A DNA stretch of 64,000 bases, from NCBI RefSeq assembly GCF_000284255.1, contig NC_017075.1, forward strand, positions 3,100,001 through 3,164,000, read 5' to 3'. The position numbers were made by a program, and so were the translations under genes. Below are positions 12,637 through 25,830 of this stretch, one piece after another. How positions within the stretch are numbered: position 1 is the first letter of the stretch; each line of letters begins with the position of its first letter. The notes under the pieces were generated by a model. The model worked only from the letters and a program-made list of their open reading frames with translations, had not been told where the DNA came from and searched no databases. Source of the DNA: Rubrivivax gelatinosus IL144. Lineage in GTDB: Bacteria > Pseudomonadota > Gammaproteobacteria > Burkholderiales > Burkholderiaceae_C.

Positions 12637-13677
12637 ATGAAGAACCTGCAAGAAGCCACCGAGCGCATCTGCGAGTTGAAGGGCGGCCTCGTCGCGCTGG
12701 ATGCGCTGATGCCGGCGTTGATCGAAACCCTGGGCCCGGCCTCGCTGACGCGGCTGGCCGCGTCCTTCGACGCCTATGCCGAGGCGGCGCGCACGGTGAT
12801 GCTGCACGCCGAGATCTCCGACCTCGTGCTGGCCAGCTTCGAGCGCGACGTCGCGCGCCATCGGGCGGTGCTGCGCGGCAGCGCCGGCCAGCCCAGGCCC
12901 GCGCCGGCCGGCACCGTGGACGCGCTGCTGCTGGCGACGACCCGCGTCGCGACCTTCGTCGGCGCGCAGGCGCTGAGCAGCGCCAGCGGCTTCTTCTTCC
13001 GCCGCGACGAGCGGCTGTTCCTCGTCAGCGCCCGGCACGTCTTCGTCGACGCCGCCAGCGCGCACCGCCCCGACCGCCTGGAGATCACGCTGCACACCGA
13101 CCCCGGCGACCTGGCGCAGCACGCCGTCGTCTCGTTGCCGCTGTTCCGCGACGGCCTGAGCCAGTGGCGCGACGGCAGCGACAGCGGCGGCGCGGTCGAC
13201 GTGGCGGCGATCGAGATCGAAGAATCGCTGCTGCCCGCCGGCACCCGGCTGCAGGCCTTCGACGAGAGCCATCTGCAGGCGCTGGACGAGGACATCGCGA
13301 TCGGCGACGTGCTGACGATCCCGGGTTACCCGCTGGGCTTCCAGGACACGGTGCACCACCTCGCGGTGGCGCGCAACGCGTCGATCGCCTCGGCCTACGG
13401 CGTGCGCTTCCAGCGCCAGGGCTGCTTCCTGACCGATGCGCGCACGCACCGCGGCAGCAGCGGCGCGCCGGTGGTGCGCCGCCGCCGCCAGGGCGCCGCG
13501 GCGGCGCTGGCGTCCTGGCAGCTGCTGGGCGTGCACTCGACGCGCATGGACATGCGCACGCGCGACGAGCACGAGGACGAATCGCTGGGCCTGAACTGCG
13601 CCTGGTACGCCGACGTGCTGCTGGCGCTGACCGGCGAGCGCCAGGCGCCGCCGGCCAGCTCCGCGCTCAGTAGCTGA
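12637..13677 (+). CDS. Trypsin-fold serine protease-like protein with helical N-terminal domain
   Basis: A 346-residue protein with no signal peptide. Residues 1-90 are helical (heptad-like, KNLQEATERICELKGGLVAL) and unrecognised. From about 105 a chymotrypsin-fold domain shows the likely triad: His134 in LVSARHVF, Asp188 in AVDVAAIEI, and Ser275 in RGSSGAPVV (GxSGxP-type oxyanion site). All three appear intact, so proteolysis is possible. Lack of an export signal suggests a cytosolic substrate. GGAGG precedes the ATG. The stop overlaps by 11 bp the end of the convergent copper receptor gene. A precise family name is not offered. Confidence 0.75.
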   Translation: MKNLQEATERICELKGGLVALDALMPALIETLGPASLTRLAASFDAYAEAARTVMLHAEISDLVLASFERDVARHRAVLRGSAGQPRPAPAGTVDALLLATTRVATFVGAQALSSASGFFFRRDERLFLVSARHVFVDAASAHRPDRLEITLHTDPGDLAQHAVVSLPLFRDGLSQWRDGSDSGGAVDVAAIEIEESLLPAGTRLQAFDESHLQALDEDIAIGDVLTIPGYPLGFQDTVHHLAVARNASIASAYGVRFQRQGCFLTDARTHRGSSGAPVVRRRRQGAAAALASWQLLGVHSTRMDMRTRDEHEDESLGLNCAWYADVLLALTGERQAPPASSALSS

Positions 13678-15727
13678 GGTTCAGCTTCACCCAGACGTTG
13701 CGCCCGGTTTCGTGGATGCGCACCGGGTCGGCGGGGTAGCCGAAGTCGGCGCTGCCGGCCAGGTTCAGGTGCTCGCTGTAGGTCCGGTCGAACAGGTTGT
13801 CGACGCCGGCCGTGAGCTGCAGGCGTTCGTCGAAGCGGTAGCCGCCGTTGAGCGCCAGCGTCACGAAGCCGGCGCTCGCGCCCAGGTCGCGGCCGACGAC
13901 GTTGCCCTGGTCGAGCGCGACGCGGCGCTGCGCCGCGACGGCGCGCAGCAGCGTGCCGAAGCTCCAGCGGCCGTCGTCCCAGCGGGCGCTGAACCGCGCC
14001 TCCAGCGGCGGCATCTGCGGCAGCGCCTGGCCGCTCGTGGCGTTCTCGCCCCAGGCGTAGGCCAGCGTGCCGCCGAGCTTCCAGCGCGGCGTCGGCCGCA
14101 GTTCGACGCCGGCTTCGGCGCCGCGGATGTTGGCGTCGACGTTGGTGGCGGTGGACGTCAGGCCCATCATGCCGCCGCCGCCATAGCTGAAGAGGATGTA
14201 GTCGGCGATGCGGCCGGCGTAGGCCGAGACCCAGGCGCTCCAGTCGGCGCTGCGGTATTGCGCGCCGACGTCGAGCTGGGTCGTCTTCTCGGGGCGGAGG
14301 CCGGCGAAGGCGTTGGCGGCGCCGGCCGGGCCCTTGTCGGCCGAGAACAGCTCCCAGTAGTCGGGCATGCGCTCGGTGTGGCCCAGGCCGGCGTACCAGC
14401 CCAGCGGCAGCGTCGAGAGTTCCCGCTCGTAGCGCAGGAAACCGGCCTTCAGCGTCTCGTCGCGCGTCTGGCCGGCCGTCGGGTTGGGCATCGCCATCAT
14501 GCCGGTGGTCTGGCGCTTGTCGGTGGCTTCGGCGCGGTCCAGGCGCAGGCCGGCGACGACGCGTTGGCGGGCTTCGATCGCCCAGCTGCCCTCGGTGAAG
14601 ACGCCGACGCTGCGCAGCTCGGCGTCGGTGGCCCAGGGCTGGTCGCGGTAGGCGCCGCGGCCCATCGCGCTGCGGTCGCGGTGGCGGCTGGCCAGCGCGT
14701 CGATGCCGCTGGTCAGCGCCAGGCCCGCGGCCGTCCAGTCGACCGCCACGCGGCCGCCCTGCGTGCGGCGCTCGACGTCGGCGGCCATCGGCATCGGCAT
14801 CGAGCTCATCGGGTTCGGCTCGCGCAGCGTGTAGTTGTCCATCACGTGGTCAGCGAGGTTGTAGTAGACGCTCGCCTTGACGGACTTCAGCACCGGGCCG
14901 AGGTTCTTGCGCTCGAGGCGCAGGCCGTAGCTCTGGCGGCGGAACTGCGCGCCGTCCATGCCGCGGCCGGCGTAACGCGCCTCGCCGTCGCCGGTGCCGG
15001 CGCTGAACTCGACGACGGTGTCGGCGTCGGGCGTCCAGCCCAGCGCCAGGTCGGTGTTCCACTTCTTCCACGAAGAAGGCACGGTCTTGCCGTCGCCGTC
15101 CTCGTAGTCGTCGGCCTGCGCATGGTTGGCTGACAACCGCGCGTAACCCTGCGCGAAGCCGGCGGTGGCGTCGAGCACCGCGTCGGCGCGGCCGAAGGCG
15201 CCGGCCAGCAGGCTGCCGGTGGCGTGCACGCCGGGTTCGTCGAAACGCGGCGTCTCGCGCTCGAAGCGCACGGTGCCGGCCGAGGCTCCCGGCCCCCAGA
15301 GCACGGTCTGCGGGCCCTTGACGACGACCAGCTTGTCGTAGGTCTCGGGCGAGACGTAGGACAGCGGGTTGTCCATGCGCGCCGGACAGGCGCCGGGCAT
15401 CGCGCCGTCGTTGCTCAGCACGTTCAGGCGCGAACCGAACATGCCGCGCAGCACCGGGTCGCCGTTGGTGCCGCCGTTGCGCACGGCGCTGAAGCCGGGC
15501 ACGGTCTTCAGGTAGTCGGCGCCGTCGCTGGCCGGCACCGGCTGGCGCGGCAGCCGCGGGTCGGTCTCCCAGGTCAGCGCCGAGATCGGCGAAGCGGTGA
15601 TGACGATGACCTCGGTGGGCAGCGGCGGTTCATCGTCGGCGAACGAGGTGCTGGGTGAGGCGAAAGCGGCCAGGACGGCCAGGCTCAGGGCAGACGCACG
15701 CGGCGTCTTCCGTTGGGACGTGGACAT
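13667..15727 (-). CDS. TonB-dependent copper receptor, OprC-like
   Basis: Outer-membrane receptor of 686 residues. A signal peptide (LSLAVLAAFASPSTSFA) is followed by a plug with the OprC-type segments MFGSRLNVLSNDGAMPGACP and ARMDNPLSYVSPETYD. The barrel ends in a terminal Tyr. Methionine-rich loops (PMSSMPMPMAADV, TTGMMAMPNP, GGGMMGL) fit copper coordination. The start at 15727 has GGAG four bases upstream and begins the signal peptide; longer frames to 16234 run through the DUF2946 gene. It is in the same orientation as, and 61 bp downstream of, the DUF2946 gene, a recurrent pairing with copper receptors. Confidence 0.9.
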   Translation of the reverse strand: MSTSQRKTPRASALSLAVLAAFASPSTSFADDEPPLPTEVIVITASPISALTWETDPRLPRQPVPASDGADYLKTVPGFSAVRNGGTNGDPVLRGMFGSRLNVLSNDGAMPGACPARMDNPLSYVSPETYDKLVVVKGPQTVLWGPGASAGTVRFERETPRFDEPGVHATGSLLAGAFGRADAVLDATAGFAQGYARLSANHAQADDYEDGDGKTVPSSWKKWNTDLALGWTPDADTVVEFSAGTGDGEARYAGRGMDGAQFRRQSYGLRLERKNLGPVLKSVKASVYYNLADHVMDNYTLREPNPMSSMPMPMAADVERRTQGGRVAVDWTAAGLALTSGIDALASRHRDRSAMGRGAYRDQPWATDAELRSVGVFTEGSWAIEARQRVVAGLRLDRAEATDKRQTTGMMAMPNPTAGQTRDETLKAGFLRYERELSTLPLGWYAGLGHTERMPDYWELFSADKGPAGAANAFAGLRPEKTTQLDVGAQYRSADWSAWVSAYAGRIADYILFSYGGGGMMGLTSTATNVDANIRGAEAGVELRPTPRWKLGGTLAYAWGENATSGQALPQMPPLEARFSARWDDGRWSFGTLLRAVAAQRRVALDQGNVVGRDLGASAGFVTLALNGGYRFDERLQLTAGVDNLFDRTYSEHLNLAGSADFGYPADPVRIHETGRNVWVKLNLSY

Positions 15728-15788
15728 GGGACTCCAAAGCACAAGGAGCACGGCCAGCAGGCCGCGCGGAGTAAACGGGACTTGTGGT

Positions 15789-16145
15789 TCAGAGCGAGGC
15801 CGGCGGGCCTTGCGCGCCGAGGCCGCACAGGCGCACCGGGCGGGCACGCGGCGGCTCGTCGACGAGCGCGAGCTGCGTGGCCGGCGCAAGCGGCGGCAGC
15901 GGCGCCTGCCAGCGCGGCGGCGGCATCGGCGCGCCGAGCACGCAGTAGCCGCAGTCCGCGCCGGCGTGCAGGCTGGCCGGCAGGCCGCTGTCGCCGTGGC
16001 CGCCCTCGGTGCTGCAGAGCTCGGCCCAGGACGGCGGCGCCTGCGCCGCCAGCACCCGGCTGATCGACGGCATGAGCGCCATGAGCAGCGCGGCCAGGAA
16101 GGCCAGGCGGGACATGGAGCGCAGGAATGCCGTGCGGCGGAGCAT
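15789..16145 (-). CDS. DUF2946 family small exported protein
   Basis: A 118-residue protein with an N-terminal hydrophobic signal (LAFLAALLMALMPSISRVLA). The body has a small Cys set, one Cys in ELCSTEGGHG and a CGYC pair, and then a Pro-rich tail. This matches DUF2946, which is often beside copper TonB receptors and efflux genes. A role in periplasmic copper handling is inferred from Cys/His content and position. It is the first gene of a likely two-gene operon with the receptor, divergent from the sigma-factor gene at 16233. Confidence 0.78.
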   Translation of the reverse strand: MLRRTAFLRSMSRLAFLAALLMALMPSISRVLAAQAPPSWAELCSTEGGHGDSGLPASLHAGADCGYCVLGAPMPPPRWQAPLPPLAPATQLALVDEPPRARPVRLCGLGAQGPPASL

Positions 16146-16232
16146 GGGGCGGATTCTCGCCGCCCGGCGGGCGACATTCCTTCAATTGCTTCAAGAATCG
16201 AAGCTCGCCGCCGCCGGGCTAAGCTGGCGCCC

Positions 16233-17441
16233 ATGCGGGCCGCCCTCGACGCCGTCTACCGCGAACACGCGCGCCGCGTGTTCTCGACGCTGGTGCGGCT
16301 GCTCGGCAGCTTCGAGCTCGCCGAGGAGGCGCTGCACGACGCCTTCCTCGCCGCCGCCGAGCAATGGCCGGCGCACGGCGTGCCGGCGCATCCGGTGGCC
16401 TGGCTGGTGTCGGCCGGGCGCTACCGCACGATCGACCGGCTGCGGCGCGAACGCCGCTTCATGGCCTGGGACGACACGCTGGCCGACCCCGCGCCCGGGC
16501 CCGACGCGCTGGCCGAGGCCCGCGACGAAATCCCCGACGACCGGCTGCGCCTGGTCTTCACCTGCTGCCACCCCAGCTTGTCGGAAGACGCGCGCATCGC
16601 GCTGACGCTGCGCGAGGTCTGCGGCCTGGGCACCGAGGCCATCGCCGCGGCCTTCGTGCTGCCGACGCCGACGCTGGCGCAGCGCATCGTGCGCGCCAAG
16701 GCCAAGATCGCCGCGGCCCGCATCCCCTACGAAGTCCCCGGACCGGCCGAGCTGCCGGCGCGCCTGACCAGCGTGCTGCGCGTCGTCTACCTCGTGTTCA
16801 ACGAAGGCCACGCGGCGCGCGACGCCGGCCTGGCCGACGAGGCGATCCGCCTGGCGCGGCTGCTGCTGGTGCTGATGGCGCCCGAGCCGCCGGCCGAAAC
16901 ACGTGGCCTGCTGGCGCTGCTGCTGCTGAGCGACGCCCGCCGCGCCGCCCGCCTGGACGCCGACGGCGCGCTGGTGCCGCTGGACCGGCAGGACCGCCGC
17001 CTCTGGAACCGCGCGCTGATCGCCGAAGGCTGCACGCTGGCCGAGGCCGCGCTGCGCCAGCGTGGTTTCGGCGCCTATGCGCTGCAGGCGGCGATCGCCG
17101 CGGTGCATGCCGAAGCCGCCGACGCCGATGCCACCGACTGGGCGCAGATCGTCGGCCTGTACGACGCGCTGTGGCGCGTGGAGCCGACGCCGGTGGTGGC
17201 GCTGAACCGCGCCGTCGCGGTGGCGATGCGCGACGGCCCCGAGGCCGGCCTGGCCTTGCTGCGGCCGCTGCTGCCGCAACTGCCCGCCTACCCCGCCGCG
17301 CCGGCTGCTGCCGCGGAGCTGTGCCGCCGCGCCGGCCTGCTCGACGAAGCACGACGGCACTACCGCGACGCCGTCGCGCTGGCACGCCAGGCGCCCGAAC
17401 GCGACTTCCTCGCCGCACGGCTGGCGGCGCTGTGCGGTTGA
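16233..17441 (+). CDS. ECF42-type RNA polymerase sigma factor (first copy)
   Basis: A 402-residue extracytoplasmic-function sigma factor with a long C-terminal extension. Region 2 (about 1-75) includes LLGSFELAEEALHDAFLAAA and RYRTIDRLRRERR. Region 4 (about 105-160) includes LTLREVCGLGTEAIAAAF. The C-terminal part (about 180-400) has helical, TPR-like repeats with VVYLVFNEGH and PTPVVALNRAVAVAM, diagnostic of the ECF42 group. ECF42 factors lack an anti-sigma partner and are encoded beside DGPF/YciI proteins, as here. Three small target-like genes follow behind a TGTCGA promoter. Its own start has only a weak ribosome site. Confidence 0.9.
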   Translation: MRAALDAVYREHARRVFSTLVRLLGSFELAEEALHDAFLAAAEQWPAHGVPAHPVAWLVSAGRYRTIDRLRRERRFMAWDDTLADPAPGPDALAEARDEIPDDRLRLVFTCCHPSLSEDARIALTLREVCGLGTEAIAAAFVLPTPTLAQRIVRAKAKIAAARIPYEVPGPAELPARLTSVLRVVYLVFNEGHAARDAGLADEAIRLARLLLVLMAPEPPAETRGLLALLLLSDARRAARLDADGALVPLDRQDRRLWNRALIAEGCTLAEAALRQRGFGAYALQAAIAAVHAEAADADATDWAQIVGLYDALWRVEPTPVVALNRAVAVAMRDGPEAGLALLRPLLPQLPAYPAAPAAAAELCRRAGLLDEARRHYRDAVALARQAPERDFLAARLAALCG

Positions 17442-18517: not shown

Positions 18518-18871
18518 ATGAAGTACCTGTGCCTCGTCTACCTGGACGCCGAACACTGGAACGCCTGCCCCGACGCCGACTGCGCCGACTACGCGCGCGA
18601 GCTGGCCGACAGCGGCCGCATGCTGGCCGCCGAGCCGCTGCACGGCACGCACACCGCGACCACGGTGCGCGTGCGCAACGGCCAGGTCAGGCTGTTCGAC
18701 GGCCCGTTCGCCGAGACCCGCGAGATGCTCGCCGGCTTCTACCTCGTCGACGCGAAAGACCTGAACGAAGCGATCCGCATCGCCGCCGGCATCCCGCCGG
18801 CGCGACACGGCAGCGTCGAGGTGCGGCCGGTGAGGGAGTTGCAGGTCGCGCCCGTCGCGCAGAAGAGATGA
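18518..18871 (+). CDS. DGPF-domain (YciI-like) protein, module 1
   Basis: A 117-residue dimeric alpha-beta-fold protein of the YCII-related/DGPF group. It opens MKYLCLVYLDAEHW and carries the signature RLFDGPFAETREMLAGFYLV. GAGG precedes the ATG. DGPF proteins are the usual targets of ECF42 sigma factors; their reaction is unknown. It is the last gene of the module and is convergent with the borosin methyltransferase fusion, 24 bp away. Confidence 0.9.
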   Translation: MKYLCLVYLDAEHWNACPDADCADYARELADSGRMLAAEPLHGTHTATTVRVRNGQVRLFDGPFAETREMLAGFYLVDAKDLNEAIRIAAGIPPARHGSVEVRPVRELQVAPVAQKR

Positions 18872-18895: not shown

Positions 18896-21439
18896 TCAGT
18901 GAGTAGAGGCGGAACGGCCCTCCGCGGCGCTTTGCCGGAGCAGGCCCGCCGTCGTGTCCTTCTCCAGCCGGCCCAGCGGCGGGATCACCAGCGTCGTGTA
19001 CTCGGCGTACTGGGCGTCGGGCAGGTCACGCAAGGCCAGGCGCTGCATGCGCGGCTGCTCGATCGGCAGCCACGCCGCTTCGTAGAGGATCACTTCGTGC
19101 TCCGGCGGGTACCAGCGCAGCAGCTTGTCCACCAGCGCCTTCAGGCCCTCGCGCTCGGCATGAAAGCGTGCACATGTGAGGTCGCCGGCCAGCGCCACCT
19201 GCCACAGCAGCACCAGGCCGGCGCTGTCGATGCGGCGGTCGTAGACCAGGAAGTGCGTCGCTTCCATCGACTGCACGCCGCGCCGGCCCGGGTCCAGACC
19301 GAGGTCGGCGTACAGGCAGGCTTCGGCCGAGATGCCCGGTTCCATGCGCGCCGGGATGCCTTCGGCGCGTGCCTTGCGCACCACCACGTGCGGCACGTCG
19401 GCGAACACGCCCGGGTGGCCGTAGAACACGGCGCAGACGCGCTTGCCGGCACGCACCTCGGTCATGATCCGCTCGTCGATCTCGCGATAGGTCTCGCGCC
19501 GGTCCTTGCCCGGCGCGTAGTGCAGACCGAGGTTGATCGCATCCGGCCGCAGGCTGCTGATCATCGCCAGCGCCATCGGGTTCACCAGGCAGAACACCCG
19601 CTCGGCCTCGCGGATCTCCGACAGGCAGCGCTCGCTGGCGTGGCGGCCGAAATCGATGCCGCTGCCCACCACCACCAGGCTGGCCGGCCCGCTCTTGCGC
19701 GGCTCGTGGCCGCCGGCACGCACCACGCGGTTGCGCCCGGCGTGTTTGGCACGGTAGAGCGCCTGGTCGGCCTCATGCACCAGTTGCTCCAGCGTGCTCG
19801 CTTGTTCGTTGGCTTCGCAGATGCCGGAGCTGATGCTGAAGTGCACCGTCCTGCCGAAGACGGTGATCGGCTCGATGCGCTCGCGCAAGCGCTGCAGCAG
19901 CGCCTCGGCATGCGGGGCATCGCCCTCGACGAGGATCATGAACTCGTCGCCGCCGCTGCGTCCGGCGATGCCGCCTTCGCCCACGACCTCGGCGATCCAG
20001 GTCCCGAGCGAGCGCAGCGTTTCGTCGCCGGCGGCGTGACCGAAGTGGTCGTTGACGCCCTTGAAGCGGTCGACGTCGGCGACGATCGCGGTGAACGGCC
20101 GCCCCCGCTTGCGCGCCGCGGCGAAGGCCGCTTCGCCGAGCTTGTGCACCTGCTGGTAGTTGTAGAGGCGGGTCAGGCCGTCGTGTTCGGACTGCCAGCG
20201 GTAGCGCCGACGCTCGAGTGCGGTATGCCGCAGCAGCGCCGTCAGCAGGATCGCGGCCAGCAGCAGGCCACCGATGCCTCCCCACAGCAGCCACTGCCGG
20301 CGCTCTGCCGCGGTGACCTGCAGCGTCGCCAGTTCCTTCTCGGCCTGCAGCAGCGCGATCTGCTGCTCCTTCAGGCGGGTGTCGAACTGCACCTGCAGAA
20401 AGGCCAGCCGGCGCTCGCGCGCCTCGCTCTCGGCCGACGCCGACGCCGTCGCCGGGGCGGCTCTCTTGTAGTGCGCCAGGGCCTCGGCGAACTCGCCACG
20501 CTTCTCGGCCAGGCGCGCCAGGAGGCCTTCCGTTTCCGCCACCGCCGAATCGGCATTCCGGCCGCGGTAGTAACGCAGGATATCGGTCAGCAGCTTGCCG
20601 GCACGGTCCAGGTCACGTCCCGAGTCGATCAGGCTGCCCGCCAGCGCCTGGCGCGAGTCCCACTGGCCAGCGGCGTAGCCGGCCTTCTCGTACTCCGCCA
20701 ACGCCTGGCCAAACCAGCGCAAGGCCTCGCCATGCAAGCCCTGCGCGGCCAGCATCCTGCCGACCCCGTACTTGCCGTTGGCGGCGAACACCATGTCGCC
20801 AGCGCGCGTGCAGGCCTCGATCTGCCGCCGATGCCAATGTTCGGCGTCCCGGAACCGGCGCGAAAGCTCCTCGGCCGTCGCGATGTGGGTCAAAGCCATG
20901 CACCGGCCATGGCCGTCGCCTCGCTCTTCGACCAACGAGAGCTCGCGCATTGCGAGTTCGCGCGCTTTGCCGGTTTCGCCGACCAAGGAGTACACGTAGC
21001 TGGCGACGCCCAACAGACGCGCCGACTCTTCTGGCGCCTCGTCCAGATAGCCGAGCGCCTCGTCGAGCCAGGTGAACGCCCGTACCCATTGCTCGACGTT
21101 CGCCGCGACGCTGATTGCGGTGCTATAGGCGCGAACGCGCAGTGCAGCGGGAAGCGGCGAATCCTGAAGCAACGCGCTCAACCCTTGGATCGCGCCGCTC
21201 TCGTCGCCCGACAGTGCGAGCATTCGCAGCCGCACGAACTCCACCCGCTGCCGCTGCTCGCGGCTCAGCGCCTCCAGTCGCGGGGACAGCGCCTGGATGT
21301 TGTCAGTGGTCTGCCGCCAGTTCGCAGTGGCGCCCAGACGCTCGATCTCGGCGACCTGCGGTTCCAGCGCCTCGCCGGCAAACGCAGGACCGCCGACGAG
21401 CGCAAACCACAAAGACGCAACGAGCCAGGATGCACGCAT
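18896..21439 (-). CDS. Fusion protein: TPR sensor, TM, GGDEF cyclase, borosin-type N-methyltransferase
   Basis: An 847-residue protein of three parts. After a signal peptide, residues about 25-330 form TPR-like helical repeats, then a coiled coil and one membrane helix near 383-403. A diguanylate cyclase domain (about 415-580) has an intact GGDEF at 496-500, but no RxxD inhibitory site precedes it. From about 588 a tetrapyrrole-methylase-superfamily domain begins with LVVVGSGIDF and carries VFYGHPGVFADVPHVV (GHPG at 674-677) and ARMEPGISAEACLYADLGLD, then EATHFLVYDR and LLWQVA. These blocks resemble the fungal OphMA and bacterial SonM enzymes that N-methylate peptide backbones with SAM. A borosin-like precursor gene ends 24 bp upstream on the same strand. 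GGDEF fused to such a methyltransferase is not an arrangement I know. Confidence 0.85.
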   Translation of the reverse strand: MRASWLVASLWFALVGGPAFAGEALEPQVAEIERLGATANWRQTTDNIQALSPRLEALSREQRQRVEFVRLRMLALSGDESGAIQGLSALLQDSPLPAALRVRAYSTAISVAANVEQWVRAFTWLDEALGYLDEAPEESARLLGVASYVYSLVGETGKARELAMRELSLVEERGDGHGRCMALTHIATAEELSRRFRDAEHWHRRQIEACTRAGDMVFAANGKYGVGRMLAAQGLHGEALRWFGQALAEYEKAGYAAGQWDSRQALAGSLIDSGRDLDRAGKLLTDILRYYRGRNADSAVAETEGLLARLAEKRGEFAEALAHYKRAAPATASASAESEARERRLAFLQVQFDTRLKEQQIALLQAEKELATLQVTAAERRQWLLWGGIGGLLLAAILLTALLRHTALERRRYRWQSEHDGLTRLYNYQQVHKLGEAAFAAARKRGRPFTAIVADVDRFKGVNDHFGHAAGDETLRSLGTWIAEVVGEGGIAGRSGGDEFMILVEGDAPHAEALLQRLRERIEPITVFGRTVHFSISSGICEANEQASTLEQLVHEADQALYRAKHAGRNRVVRAGGHEPRKSGPASLVVVGSGIDFGRHASERCLSEIREAERVFCLVNPMALAMISSLRPDAINLGLHYAPGKDRRETYREIDERIMTEVRAGKRVCAVFYGHPGVFADVPHVVVRKARAEGIPARMEPGISAEACLYADLGLDPGRRGVQSMEATHFLVYDRRIDSAGLVLLWQVALAGDLTCARFHAEREGLKALVDKLLRWYPPEHEVILYEAAWLPIEQPRMQRLALRDLPDAQYAEYTTLVIPPLGRLEKDTTAGLLRQSAAEGRSASTH

Positions 21440-21463: not shown

Positions 21464-21682
21464 CTAGTTGTCGTAGGCGTGGATGAGGTGATTGGTCGCG
21501 AACTGCCCGTCTTGCAGCCCGGTGAGGCGCTTGATCGCTTCGTAGTCCTTGTTCAGCAGCGCAGCGCTCTCTTCGGCGGACAGACCGAAGCGGCTGATCA
21601 CCGCCTGCGGGTTCTGCTCGTACTCGCTGCTCAACGCAGCATCACTGCCCAGCTTCCTCATCAGGTCAAGCAGCTTCGACAT
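21464..21682 (-). CDS. Split-borosin precursor peptide
   Basis: A 72-residue peptide. The leader (about 1-55: MSKLLDLMRKLGSDAALSSE, NPQAVISRFGLSAEESAALL) is a small helical LigA-like domain of the kind that docks SonA-type precursors on their methyltransferase. The C-terminal tail GQFATNHLIHAYDN is the likely core that would receive alpha-N-methyl groups. The start at 21682 is supported by AGAGGA upstream and by the leader alignment; a longer frame to 21787 adds unrelated residues. It is the first gene of a two-gene operon with the GGDEF-methyltransferase fusion. No protease or exporter is adjacent. The leader type is clear; the methylated positions are not predictable here. Confidence 0.82.
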   Translation of the reverse strand: MSKLLDLMRKLGSDAALSSEYEQNPQAVISRFGLSAEESAALLNKDYEAIKRLTGLQDGQFATNHLIHAYDN

Positions 21683-21976: not shown

Positions 21977-23335
21977 CTAGGCCCTCGCCTCGTCCGTGTC
22001 CCCGGCGACGCACACCCGGTTGCCGCCGGCCCGCTTGGCGCGATACATCGCCTCGTCGGCGCGGTCGATGAGCGGGTCGGCCTCTTCGCCGTCTTTCGGA
22101 TAACCGACGAGGCCGATGCTGGGCGACACCAGGACGGCGTTTCCGGCGACGTCGAAGGGCTCGCACAGCGCCGCACGGATCTTCTCGGCCACCAAGGCCG
22201 CGTCCTCGGGCGCGTGCAGCTGGGCGAGCAGCACGACGAACTCGTCGCCGGCCATGCGGCCGACGGTGTCGGACGCGCGCACGCAGTGCTTCAGGCGCTG
22301 CGCCACCTGCTGCAGCAGGCCGTCGCCGACGGCGTGGCCGAAACGGTCGTTCACCGGCTTGAAGTCGTCGAGGTCCAGGTACATCAGCGCCAGGCCCGTG
22401 CCGTCGCGCCGCGCGCGTGCCAGCGCCATCGCGACGCGGTCGCGCACCAGGTTGCGGTTGGGCAGATCGGTCAGCGCGTCGTGCTGGGCCACGTGCTGCA
22501 GCCGCAGCTGCCCCTGCTTGCGCTCGATGGCGTCGGCGATCTGCGCCGACACGAACTTCAGCAGCTCGACGTCGGCCTGGCCGTACCGCACCTCGGGCGA
22601 ATGGCTCTTCACGAGCAGCGCGCCGATGACACCGTGCGCGACGCCGAGCGGCACGCCCAGCCAGTCGACCGGCGTGCGCACGGGCTGCGCGGGGTCCACG
22701 GCATCGTGGCTGACCAGCCGCTCCTTGCCGCCGCGGATCAGCTCGGTGCACAAGGTCTCGGCGTCCAGCGTGCCCGGCTCCAGCGGCGCACGGTCCTGGT
22801 CGACGAAATACGGGAAGCTCAGCCAGTCGCCGGCGGCGTCGTACAGCGCGACGAAGAAGTTCTTCGCCGGCAGCAGCCCGTCGATGATGCGGTGGATCTG
22901 CGCGAACAGCGCCAGCAGGTCCTCGGCCGCGTGCGCCGCCTCGGAGATCGCGTACAGCGCCGCCTGCATCGCCTCGGCGCGCTTGCGCGCCGTGACGTCG
23001 CGCGCCACGGCGACACGCACCCCGTCCAGCGGCGACCAGCGCGCCGACCACATGATGTGCACGACGCGCCCGTCCTTGCGCACGTAGCGGTTCTCGAAGA
23101 TCGGCTTGTGCTGGTAAGCGACGATCTCGGCCACGGCGACCAGCGTGCGCTCGCGGTCGTCGGGGTGGACGAAGCCGATCACCGGGCGGCCGATCATCTC
23201 CTCGGGCGGGTAGCCGAAGATGCGCTCACCGGCGGCACTGACGAAGACGAACCGGCCTTCGGTGTCGACGACGCAGACGGCGTCGAGCATCAGGTCGAGG
23301 ACGTTGGCCAGAAATGCTCGGTCCAGAGGTTCCAT
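21977..23335 (-). CDS. PAS-GAF-GGDEF diguanylate cyclase
   Basis: Cytosolic 452-residue protein that should make c-di-GMP. A PAS domain (about 10-125: AVCVVDTEGRFVFVSAAGER, IFGYPPEEMIG) is followed by a GAF domain (about 150-290) and a GGDEF domain (about 300-440). The active-site motif reads AGDEF, a variant found in active cyclases. An RxxD product-inhibition site (RASD) sits at the canonical distance before it. The start at 23335 is the first ATG before the PAS fold; upstream codons approach the divergent lysR. It is on the same strand as the borosin operon, but 294 bp apart, so probably a separate transcript. Confidence 0.9.
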   Translation of the reverse strand: MEPLDRAFLANVLDLMLDAVCVVDTEGRFVFVSAAGERIFGYPPEEMIGRPVIGFVHPDDRERTLVAVAEIVAYQHKPIFENRYVRKDGRVVHIMWSARWSPLDGVRVAVARDVTARKRAEAMQAALYAISEAAHAAEDLLALFAQIHRIIDGLLPAKNFFVALYDAAGDWLSFPYFVDQDRAPLEPGTLDAETLCTELIRGGKERLVSHDAVDPAQPVRTPVDWLGVPLGVAHGVIGALLVKSHSPEVRYGQADVELLKFVSAQIADAIERKQGQLRLQHVAQHDALTDLPNRNLVRDRVAMALARARRDGTGLALMYLDLDDFKPVNDRFGHAVGDGLLQQVAQRLKHCVRASDTVGRMAGDEFVVLLAQLHAPEDAALVAEKIRAALCEPFDVAGNAVLVSPSIGLVGYPKDGEEADPLIDRADEAMYRAKRAGGNRVCVAGDTDEARA

Positions 23336-23423
23336 CGCCGCAGCATTCTCGTCGAGCCGCCGCGATCCGGCTGCGAACTGCTGCGCAGCCGCCGCCGGCC
23401 AGGCCACGCGCTAGGCTTGCGCC

Positions 23424-24417: not shown

Positions 24418-25830
24418 ATGAGTCCCGACGTGCTGGTCATCGGCGGCGGCAACGCCGCCTTGTGCGCCGCCCTGATGGCGGCCGAAGCGGGCGCCAGCGT
24501 GCTGATGCTGGAAGCCGCGCCGCGCGCCTGGCGCGGCGGCAACTCGGCGCACACGCGCAACCTGCGCTGCATGCACGACGCGCCGCAGGACGTGCTGGTC
24601 GAGGCCTATCCCGAAGAGGAGTTCTGGCAGGACCTGCTGAAGGTCACCGGCGGCCTCACCGACGAGCGCCTGGCGCGGCTGACGATCCGCGCCTCGGCGA
24701 CCTGCCGCGACTGGATGCGCCGCCACGGCGTGCACTTCCAGCCGCCGCTGTCGGGCGCGCTGCACGTCGCGCGCACCAACGCCTTCTTCATGGGCGGCGG
24801 CAAGGCGCTGGTCAACGCCTACTACCGCAGCGCCGAAAAGCTGGGCGTGCGCGTGCGCTACGAAGCGCCGGTCGACCGACTCGAAATCGAAGACGGCCGC
24901 TTCGTCGCCGCGCACGTCGGCGGCGAACGCATCGAGGCCGGCGCCTGCGTGCTGGCCGCCGGCGGCTTCGAGTCCAACCGCGAGTGGCTGCGCGAGGCCT
25001 GGGGCGAGAACGGGCGCGGCGAATGGCCGGCCGACAACTTCATCATCCGCGGCACGCGTTTCAACCGCGGCGTGCTGCTCAGGCACCTGCTGGCCGACCA
25101 CGGCGCCGAGCGCATCGGCGACCCGACCCAGGCCCACATGGTGGCCATCGACGCGCGTGCGCCGCTGTACGACGGCGGCATCTGCACACGCATCGACTGC
25201 GTCTCGCTGGGCGTCGTCGTCAACCGGCAGGCGCAGCGCTTCTACGACGAAGGCGAGGACTTCTGGCCCAAGCGCTACGCGATCTGGGGCCGCCTGGTCG
25301 CGCAGCAGTCGGGGCAGATCGCCTACTCGGTGATCGACGCCAAGGCCATCGGCCGCTTCATGCCGCCGGTGTTCCCCGGCACTCGGGCCGAGACGCTGCC
25401 CGGGCTCGCCCTGGCGCTGGGGCTGGACGTCGAGGCCTTCATGCAGACCCTGCTCGCCTACAACGCCGCCTGCCGGCCCGGCCATTTCGACCACACGCGG
25501 CTGGACGACTGCCGCACCGAGGGCCTGTCGCCGCCCAAGACCCACTGGGCGCGGCCGATCGACACGCCGCCCTTCCACGCCTACGCGGTGCGGCCCGGCA
25601 TCACCTTCACCTACCTGGGGCTGCGCACCGACGAGACGGCTGCGGTGCGCTTCGGCGGCCAGCCCAGCGAGAACCTGTTCGTGGCCGGCGAGATGATGGC
25701 CGGCAACGTGCTCGGCAAGGGCTACACCGCCGGCGTCGGCATGTCGATCGGCACCGCCTTCGGCCGCATCGCCGGCCACAACGCGGCCCGCGCCGCCCAG
25801 CGCCAGGGAGCCCGCCATGCGCACGCTTGA
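24418..25830 (+). CDS. tcuA: FAD-dependent tricarballylate dehydrogenase TcuA
   Basis: A 470-residue flavoprotein of the fumarate-reductase/succinate-dehydrogenase flavoprotein family that oxidises tricarballylate to cis-aconitate. It has the N-terminal dinucleotide site [20 protein letters not shown], the TcuA-type stretch [20 protein letters not shown], and the C-terminal FAD segment [20 protein letters not shown]. Length matches TcuA (about 465). The tcuB start lies 14 bp inside its end, so the two are translationally coupled. Confidence 0.92.

Follow-up and report, generated by a model that had tools for sequence, protein, structure and literature searches.

A 64,000-nucleotide stretch of the Rubrivivax gelatinosus IL144 genome (NC_017075.1, positions 3,100,001 to 3,164,000; hereafter the window) encodes a protein in which a putative TPR sensor and a GGDEF diguanylate cyclase domain are joined to a borosin-type peptide N-methyltransferase, with a small gene for a SonA-like precursor peptide just ahead of it (Table 1). 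Comparison with related loci suggests that partnership with a cyclase is nearly universal in this clade of borosins, forming a near-obligate operon that reaches the model SonM locus of Shewanella oneidensis, and it is this operon rather than the fusion itself that is of main interest.

Borosin methyltransferases and cyclases as operon partners

Related loci were taken from named genomes, an even draw of the Gammaproteobacteria, Shewanella, an even draw of the phylum and the family of Luteimonas. Set A held the best 79 of 570 confirmed relatives plus the two R. gelatinosus copies (see below), set B nine of ten class-level matches (the tenth being the genome of L086, already in set A), set C 20 hand-picked Shewanella loci, set D 14 of 18 phylum rows (two being the own copies and two already included) with one of the 14 removed as a duplicate, and set E 26 of 65 family rows, hand-picked. 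Rows with an identical methyltransferase sequence were removed from the counts, which also leave aside refetched or unanalysed loci (L001-L008, L010-L014, L094-L114, L124-L153, L174-L193 and L234-L240). The close clade was delimited by a methyltransferase profile score of 330 bits, a threshold set after the data had been seen.

At or above this score there were 136 non-redundant loci, 40 of them fused and 91 with a same-strand GGDEF open reading frame (ORF) within 1.6 kb, the remainder comprising one locus with a divergent GGDEF gene (L200) and four without (L049 and L230 near a contig end, L231 and L232 not). Of the latter two, both with methyltransferases of the close clade, L231 still has a precursor. 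Below 330 bits a GGDEF neighbour was found in one of 13 loci (L164, 328.9 bits), some of which may not be borosins, and with 12 of the 13 lacking one it was ruled out that GGDEF linkage extends to every relative of the methyltransferase. The background amounted to two same-strand GGDEF ORFs in 403 kb of flanks more than 5 kb away. The even class draw gave a GGDEF partner at both loci at or above the threshold and at none of seven below, and the even phylum draw gave nine same-strand partners and one divergent partner at ten loci at or above it and none at three below.

In Shewanella the methyltransferase was present in 83 of 97 genomes, and a GGDEF frame lay beside it in all 20 hand-picked loci, three of these frames being broken or shortened (L156, L163, L171). 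One genome encodes an enzyme 100% identical to SonM over the 246 residues searched, with the gene order sonM, sonA, GGDEF gene; the last may begin immediately at the stop of sonA, and its product has a hydrophobic N-terminus, a weak TPR match and a GGDEF domain. The locus tag SO1480, presumably this GGDEF gene after sonA, turned up in no text of the open literature. The tags SO1478/SO1479 turned up there in one paper alone (PMC8429565), from whose text GGDEF, diguanylate and di-GMP are absent while the word borosin is present.

The partner cyclases are largely intact. The GG[DE]EF signature was found in 128 of 132, the other four being fragments (L016, L059) or without a recognisable motif (L167, L202), and a transmembrane-like stretch precedes the GGDEF domain in 122 of the 125 cyclases with a long N-terminal part. 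RxxD, the product-inhibition site of cyclases, was present in 54 of 73 cyclases downstream of the methyltransferase, two of 17 upstream, neither of the two at loci with both and none of the 40 fusions, fragments (including one of the fusions) being scored as without. Taken together, these conserved operons lend strong though indirect support to the link between cyclic di-GMP (c-di-GMP) and peptide methylation that had been proposed from the window alone in an earlier note, and functional coupling of the borosin pathway and the cyclase is very probable.

The fusion protein and its precursor

The earlier note had placed the gene correctly at 18896-21439 with the minus strand to be understood, the plus-strand translation of 18896-21439 not being the fusion protein, and the blocks that it quoted (VGSGIDF, FYGHPGVF, MEPGISAEACLYADLGLD and LLWQVA) are all present in the translation. 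Pfam identified GGDEF at residues 418-571 (E 4e-35) and TP_methylase at 588-789 (E 6e-19). Diguanylate cyclases are marked by the GG[DE]EF signature and by DxDxFKxxND, both of which are present; the GGDEF domain is intact, as the note had said, and a predicted diguanylate cyclase. The periplasmic-sensor layout that it proposed, a signal peptide, a TPR region and one transmembrane helix, was borne out by a hydropathy script, used in place of a signal-peptide predictor to call the N-terminus and the helix, by Pfam TPR_12, barely over threshold (30.3 bits, cut-off 30.1), and by an AlphaFold2 model (38 rows, mean pLDDT 76, pTM 0.44). The model predicts a helical-repeat superhelix at about residues 41-331 followed by a long helix running through the membrane stretch into GGDEF, the methyltransferase part being less certain; a whole-model pTM of 0.44 is too low for an arrangement of the domains to be read from it.

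Homology shows the C-terminal domain to be a backbone N-methyltransferase of the borosin kind. In a search of the sequences of solved structures residues 587-828 matched SonM at E 4.9e-65, followed by the fungal borosin enzymes over the same domain at 3e-35 to 6e-43 (dbOphM 6e-43). Residues Y641, R647, Y651, Y673, F679 and W746 of the fusion align with SonM Y58, R67, Y71, Y93, F99 and W166, which the available text on SonM names among its catalytic, cofactor-binding or lock residues (PMC8429565), and their equivalents are invariant in 27 of 27 aligned domains. A cobalamin-type origin, the outcome that would have overturned the borosin assignment, was rejected: the cobI_cbiL model (NCBIfam) scored only 11.1 bits against a cut-off of 163, SonM and OphM being the nearest solved relatives.

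The precursor, which the earlier note had mentioned without coordinates, is the SonA-like ORF at 21464-21682 on the minus strand, residues 1-58 of which match SonA at E 1.7e-8. In Pfam it matched only LigA, below threshold (21 against 25.3 bits), and the solved SonA chains themselves carry the name LigA-domain proteins. Homology thus identifies this small upstream gene as the cognate precursor of the methyltransferase, and a separate precursor with a borosin-binding domain (BBD) leader adjoining the enzyme is the arrangement of a split borosin. Among 36 fused-type precursors the mean majority fraction was 0.74 in the core region (58-72) against 0.78 in the leader, and the cores have a common DG(Q/K)FATNH-x-I-x-AY pattern; a core so fixed across genera would fit a ligand better than a diversifying antibiotic. 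A second type of precursor has a longer acidic tail, often behind a cysteine-containing stretch (such as ...VVCGVHPAEEPEEEP...), and no short core, and was found in L067-L093 (except L086) and L168-L173.

The closest characterised system is SonM/SonA, the type IV split borosin of S. oneidensis (PMC8429565; PDB 7LTC and others), which shares the methyltransferase, the six checked residues and a BBD-type precursor. It differs in that in the window the methyltransferase forms the C-terminal part of the cyclase protein, the precursor lies ahead of the fusion and the core sequence is another one. OphMA and the other fungal fused borosins (PDB 5N0O, 6MJF) belong to the same methyltransferase family (E 1e-39, 6e-43), but carry their substrate in one chain with the enzyme, whereas here the fusion partner is a diguanylate cyclase and the substrate is a peptide of its own.

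Distribution and origin of the fusion

The earlier note had regarded fusion to a cyclase as an unfamiliar form, which is not supported. The legend of a published figure of borosin types defines 'GGDEF, GGDEF-sequence-containing domain' (PMC11395268), and, as far as that legend shows, the fusion protein probably has an architecture for which borosin work already has a name. In the available text of another paper (PMC11285071), the definition of the bacterial types V-X is credited to Cho 2022 and Imani 2022. In the open literature, whose coverage leaves out most subscription papers, no text joined borosin with diguanylate or di-GMP. A protein search with the fusion as query, admitting lengths of 0.55-1.75 times the query, found the GGDEF and methylase Pfam domains together in 120 of 120 proteins (the best 120 of 332, query and own second copy included). 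Luteimonas and its relatives commonly have the fusion, and that it might be unique to this genome was ruled out.

The same genome, a single contig of 5.04 Mb, holds a second full precursor-fusion pair at C1:1989490-1992267 (L009:3491-6268), 92% identical in the precursor and 84% in the methyltransferase, and besides the two fusion copies there are 10 further PF00590 matches. A clear copy was found in four of 81 genomes of the genus, and two further genomes match weakly (E 8e-5 and 8e-4), these being taken to be other methylases.

Three gene orders occur: precursor-GGDEF-methyltransferase, precursor-fusion and methyltransferase-precursor-GGDEF. A precursor ORF overlaps the cyclase frame or lies at most 400 bp from it in 108 of 132 loci, with all three orders represented. 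Among the other 24 the cyclase frame is cut by the contig start in five, L024 and L042 are among those with precursors missed through joined or shifted frames, and L115 is a true exception with its precursor about 3 kb upstream of the methyltransferase. Each of the two cyclases or fusions is accompanied by a precursor in L027, L070 and L075; no precursor was detected beside the second same-strand GGDEF frame in at least eight loci (L053, L056, L060, L072, L076, L089, L162, L194). An in-frame reading from precursor into cyclase was rejected: the precursor's stop is the sole one ahead of the cyclase frame (gap of 4) at 32 of the 108 loci, near the third that chance would give.

A quick tree of 143 rows and a careful tree of 91 rows, thinned by locus number, were built, the latter resolving two clades at 100/99. 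Fused rows need one change on the careful tree (71% of bootstraps) and one also on the quick tree, and together with the contig-end locus L049 they form a 100/92 clade within the precursor-GGDEF-methyltransferase clade. Most likely, therefore, the fusion arose once, by the joining of two neighbours in that order. Six Rubrivivax-type rows form a clade (99/94) within a fused clade of 20 rows (98/91) that is otherwise mostly Lysobacteraceae, a nesting that makes transfer between these groups likely.

A possible peptide-to-c-di-GMP signalling module

The best explanation, held at about even odds, is that the locus constitutes a self-contained peptide-to-c-di-GMP signalling module. The leader of the precursor would dock on the methyltransferase domain, and methylation of the conserved core at its C-terminus would take place on the cytoplasmic side. 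Cyclase activity needs two GGDEF domains together. SonM and OphMA act as homodimers, as stated in the text available (PMC11285071), and by analogy a methyltransferase dimer 14 residues of linker away may help to keep the two GGDEF domains together. In the least certain step, the precursor or its methylated product would be the cyclase's own input, the state of the peptide setting c-di-GMP output; the periplasmic TPR superhelix would be the most likely site of binding, the alternative being that the peptide acts by occupying the methyltransferase. This direction, with the peptide as input to the cyclase, is evenly poised. Relatives have the same module as separate genes, those for cyclase and methyltransferase being merged here.

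The Rap peptide-pheromone receptors, in which a TPR superhelix binds a signalling peptide, differ in being cytoplasmic with neither a membrane helix nor a GGDEF domain. The likeness to these (PDB 4I9C, 4GYO, 8RSV) is at fold level, with 10-16% identity, and other TPR proteins score equally. The VIA-align rows spanned residues 20-340 and 381-577, such that the absence of a methyltransferase match there is uninformative.

Control may run the opposite way, with sensor and GGDEF domain (the latter through binding of c-di-GMP or GTP) regulating and anchoring the methyltransferase such that an outside stimulus switches peptide production on or off; the peptide might then be an effector natural product of the ordinary kind. 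The methyltransferase stands where the output of a sensor protein would be, 13-22 residues past GGDEF (in the 18 of 40 fusions readable by pattern), which, like the lack of RxxD in all fused cyclases, would suit such an arrangement. It is nevertheless less likely, since the precursor mostly adjoins the cyclase wherever the methyltransferase sits, the core is conserved across genera and GG[DE]EF is kept in nearly all partners, from which the cyclase itself seems to be needed.

Less probable still is that cyclase and borosin genes are merely co-regulated neighbours, the peptide acting elsewhere, the cyclase setting lifestyle (biofilm) and the fusion being a near-neutral join. Operons often link genes that have no mutual effect on activity, L231 and L232 have no cyclase and second cyclases are often without a precursor, but the linkage is seen in both deep clades and in all three gene orders, and several genera retain the fusion without loss of either active site. 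A chance fusion with a run-of-the-mill tetrapyrrole methylase of cobalamin type, as the PF00590 membership of the C-terminal domain and the 10 other matches in the genome might suggest, is very improbable given its nearest relatives (SonM and OphM), the poor cobI/cbiL score, the retained borosin catalytic residues and the adjoining SonA-like precursor.

Were the signalling-module reading to be extended, the gammaproteobacterial SonM-type split borosins, SonM/SonA included, would form a signal arm rather than antibiotics or toxins, with the methylated peptide as ligand of its own TPR-GGDEF receptor setting c-di-GMP and a shewasin-type pepsin maturing the peptide in one branch; this wider proposal is tentative, somewhat more so than the module itself. 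If split borosins do feed c-di-GMP signalling, a ribosomal natural product would serve as a dedicated second-messenger input. S. oneidensis MR-1 suits the question, its enzyme and precursor being solved and a GGDEF gene of the same layout lying next to them, judging by the SonM-identical genome.

Other genes at borosin-cyclase loci

No third component was conserved everywhere among the 14 neighbour clusters listed, and these included neither an exporter nor a protease that the fused loci have in common. A GNAT cluster was found in 30 of the 130 loci compared (L173:5141-5683 and 29 others), adjoining or near the methyltransferase, and a pepsin-family cluster upstream of the methyltransferase in 17 (L068, L071, L076, L089, L091, L168, L169, L170, L172, L173, L199, L217, L219, L220, L222, L225, L227), both in loci of methyltransferase-first order throughout. 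A Pfam check agreed, with PF13302 in three GNAT members and PF00026 in seven pepsin members.

Within Shewanella PF00026 was found in 25 of 97 genomes, in 24 of them within 3 kb upstream and on the same strand of a second type of methyltransferase and in the last (G533) at a contig end. This second-type enzyme is about 50-54% identical to SonM, and six of the 30 genomes having it gave no pepsin match. Across the class the link was not seen, PF00026 occurring in four of 369 genomes and in none beside the methyltransferase (G451 has both, on different contigs). The available text of the paper on shewasin D describes an enzyme that is active and resides mostly in the cytosol and calls for more work on its role in vivo; that text contains none of operon, GGDEF, methylase or cyclase. 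The characterised shewasins may well be these operon pepsin genes, and the operon pepsin is a candidate maturation protease, such that its presence in matching operons of other Shewanella offers a candidate job for bacterial pepsins.

Nine Luteimonas-kind loci (L021, L023, L026, L028, L030, L032, L033, L050, L051) carry a gene of the S66 family (LD-carboxypeptidases) upstream of precursor and fusion, Pfam having been run on L023 only; it looks like local gene context, or may be a peptide-handling gene. In the window a gene for a PAS-GAF-GGDEF protein (21977-23407, minus strand) lies just upstream of the precursor, and none was seen beside the second copy (L009). The flanks further hold genes for a TonB-dependent receptor (13667-16234, minus) and an FAD-binding oxidoreductase (24418-25830, plus) and a YCII-family gene (18518-18871, plus), with no sign that these three belong to the module.

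Table 1. Coordinates of the fusion gene, its domains and the precursor gene in the window
Feature	Position	Strand	Basis
Fusion gene, 847 aa: signal peptide, TPR sensor, transmembrane helix, GGDEF, borosin-type methyltransferase	18896..21439	-	Pfam and homology
N-terminal hydrophobic stretch, probable signal peptide, residues 1-22	21374..21439	-	Hydropathy, about residues 3-21
TPR superhelix, predicted periplasmic, about residues 23-340	20420..21373	-	
Transmembrane helix, about residues 384-403	20231..20290	-	Hydropathy; model helix 378-418
GGDEF diguanylate cyclase domain, residues 418-571	19727..20188	-	Pfam
GGDEF signature, residues 496-500; RxxD inhibitory site absent	19940..19954	-	
SonM-like alpha-N-methyltransferase domain, residues 586-828	18956..19684	-	SonM homology
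Precursor gene of 72 aa, ahead of the fusion gene by 24 bases	21464..21682	-	SonA-like
BBD-like leader of precursor, residues 1-55	21518..21682	-	SonA alignment
Linker and conserved core region of precursor, residues 56-72, ending ...DGQFATNHLIHAYDN	21467..21517	-
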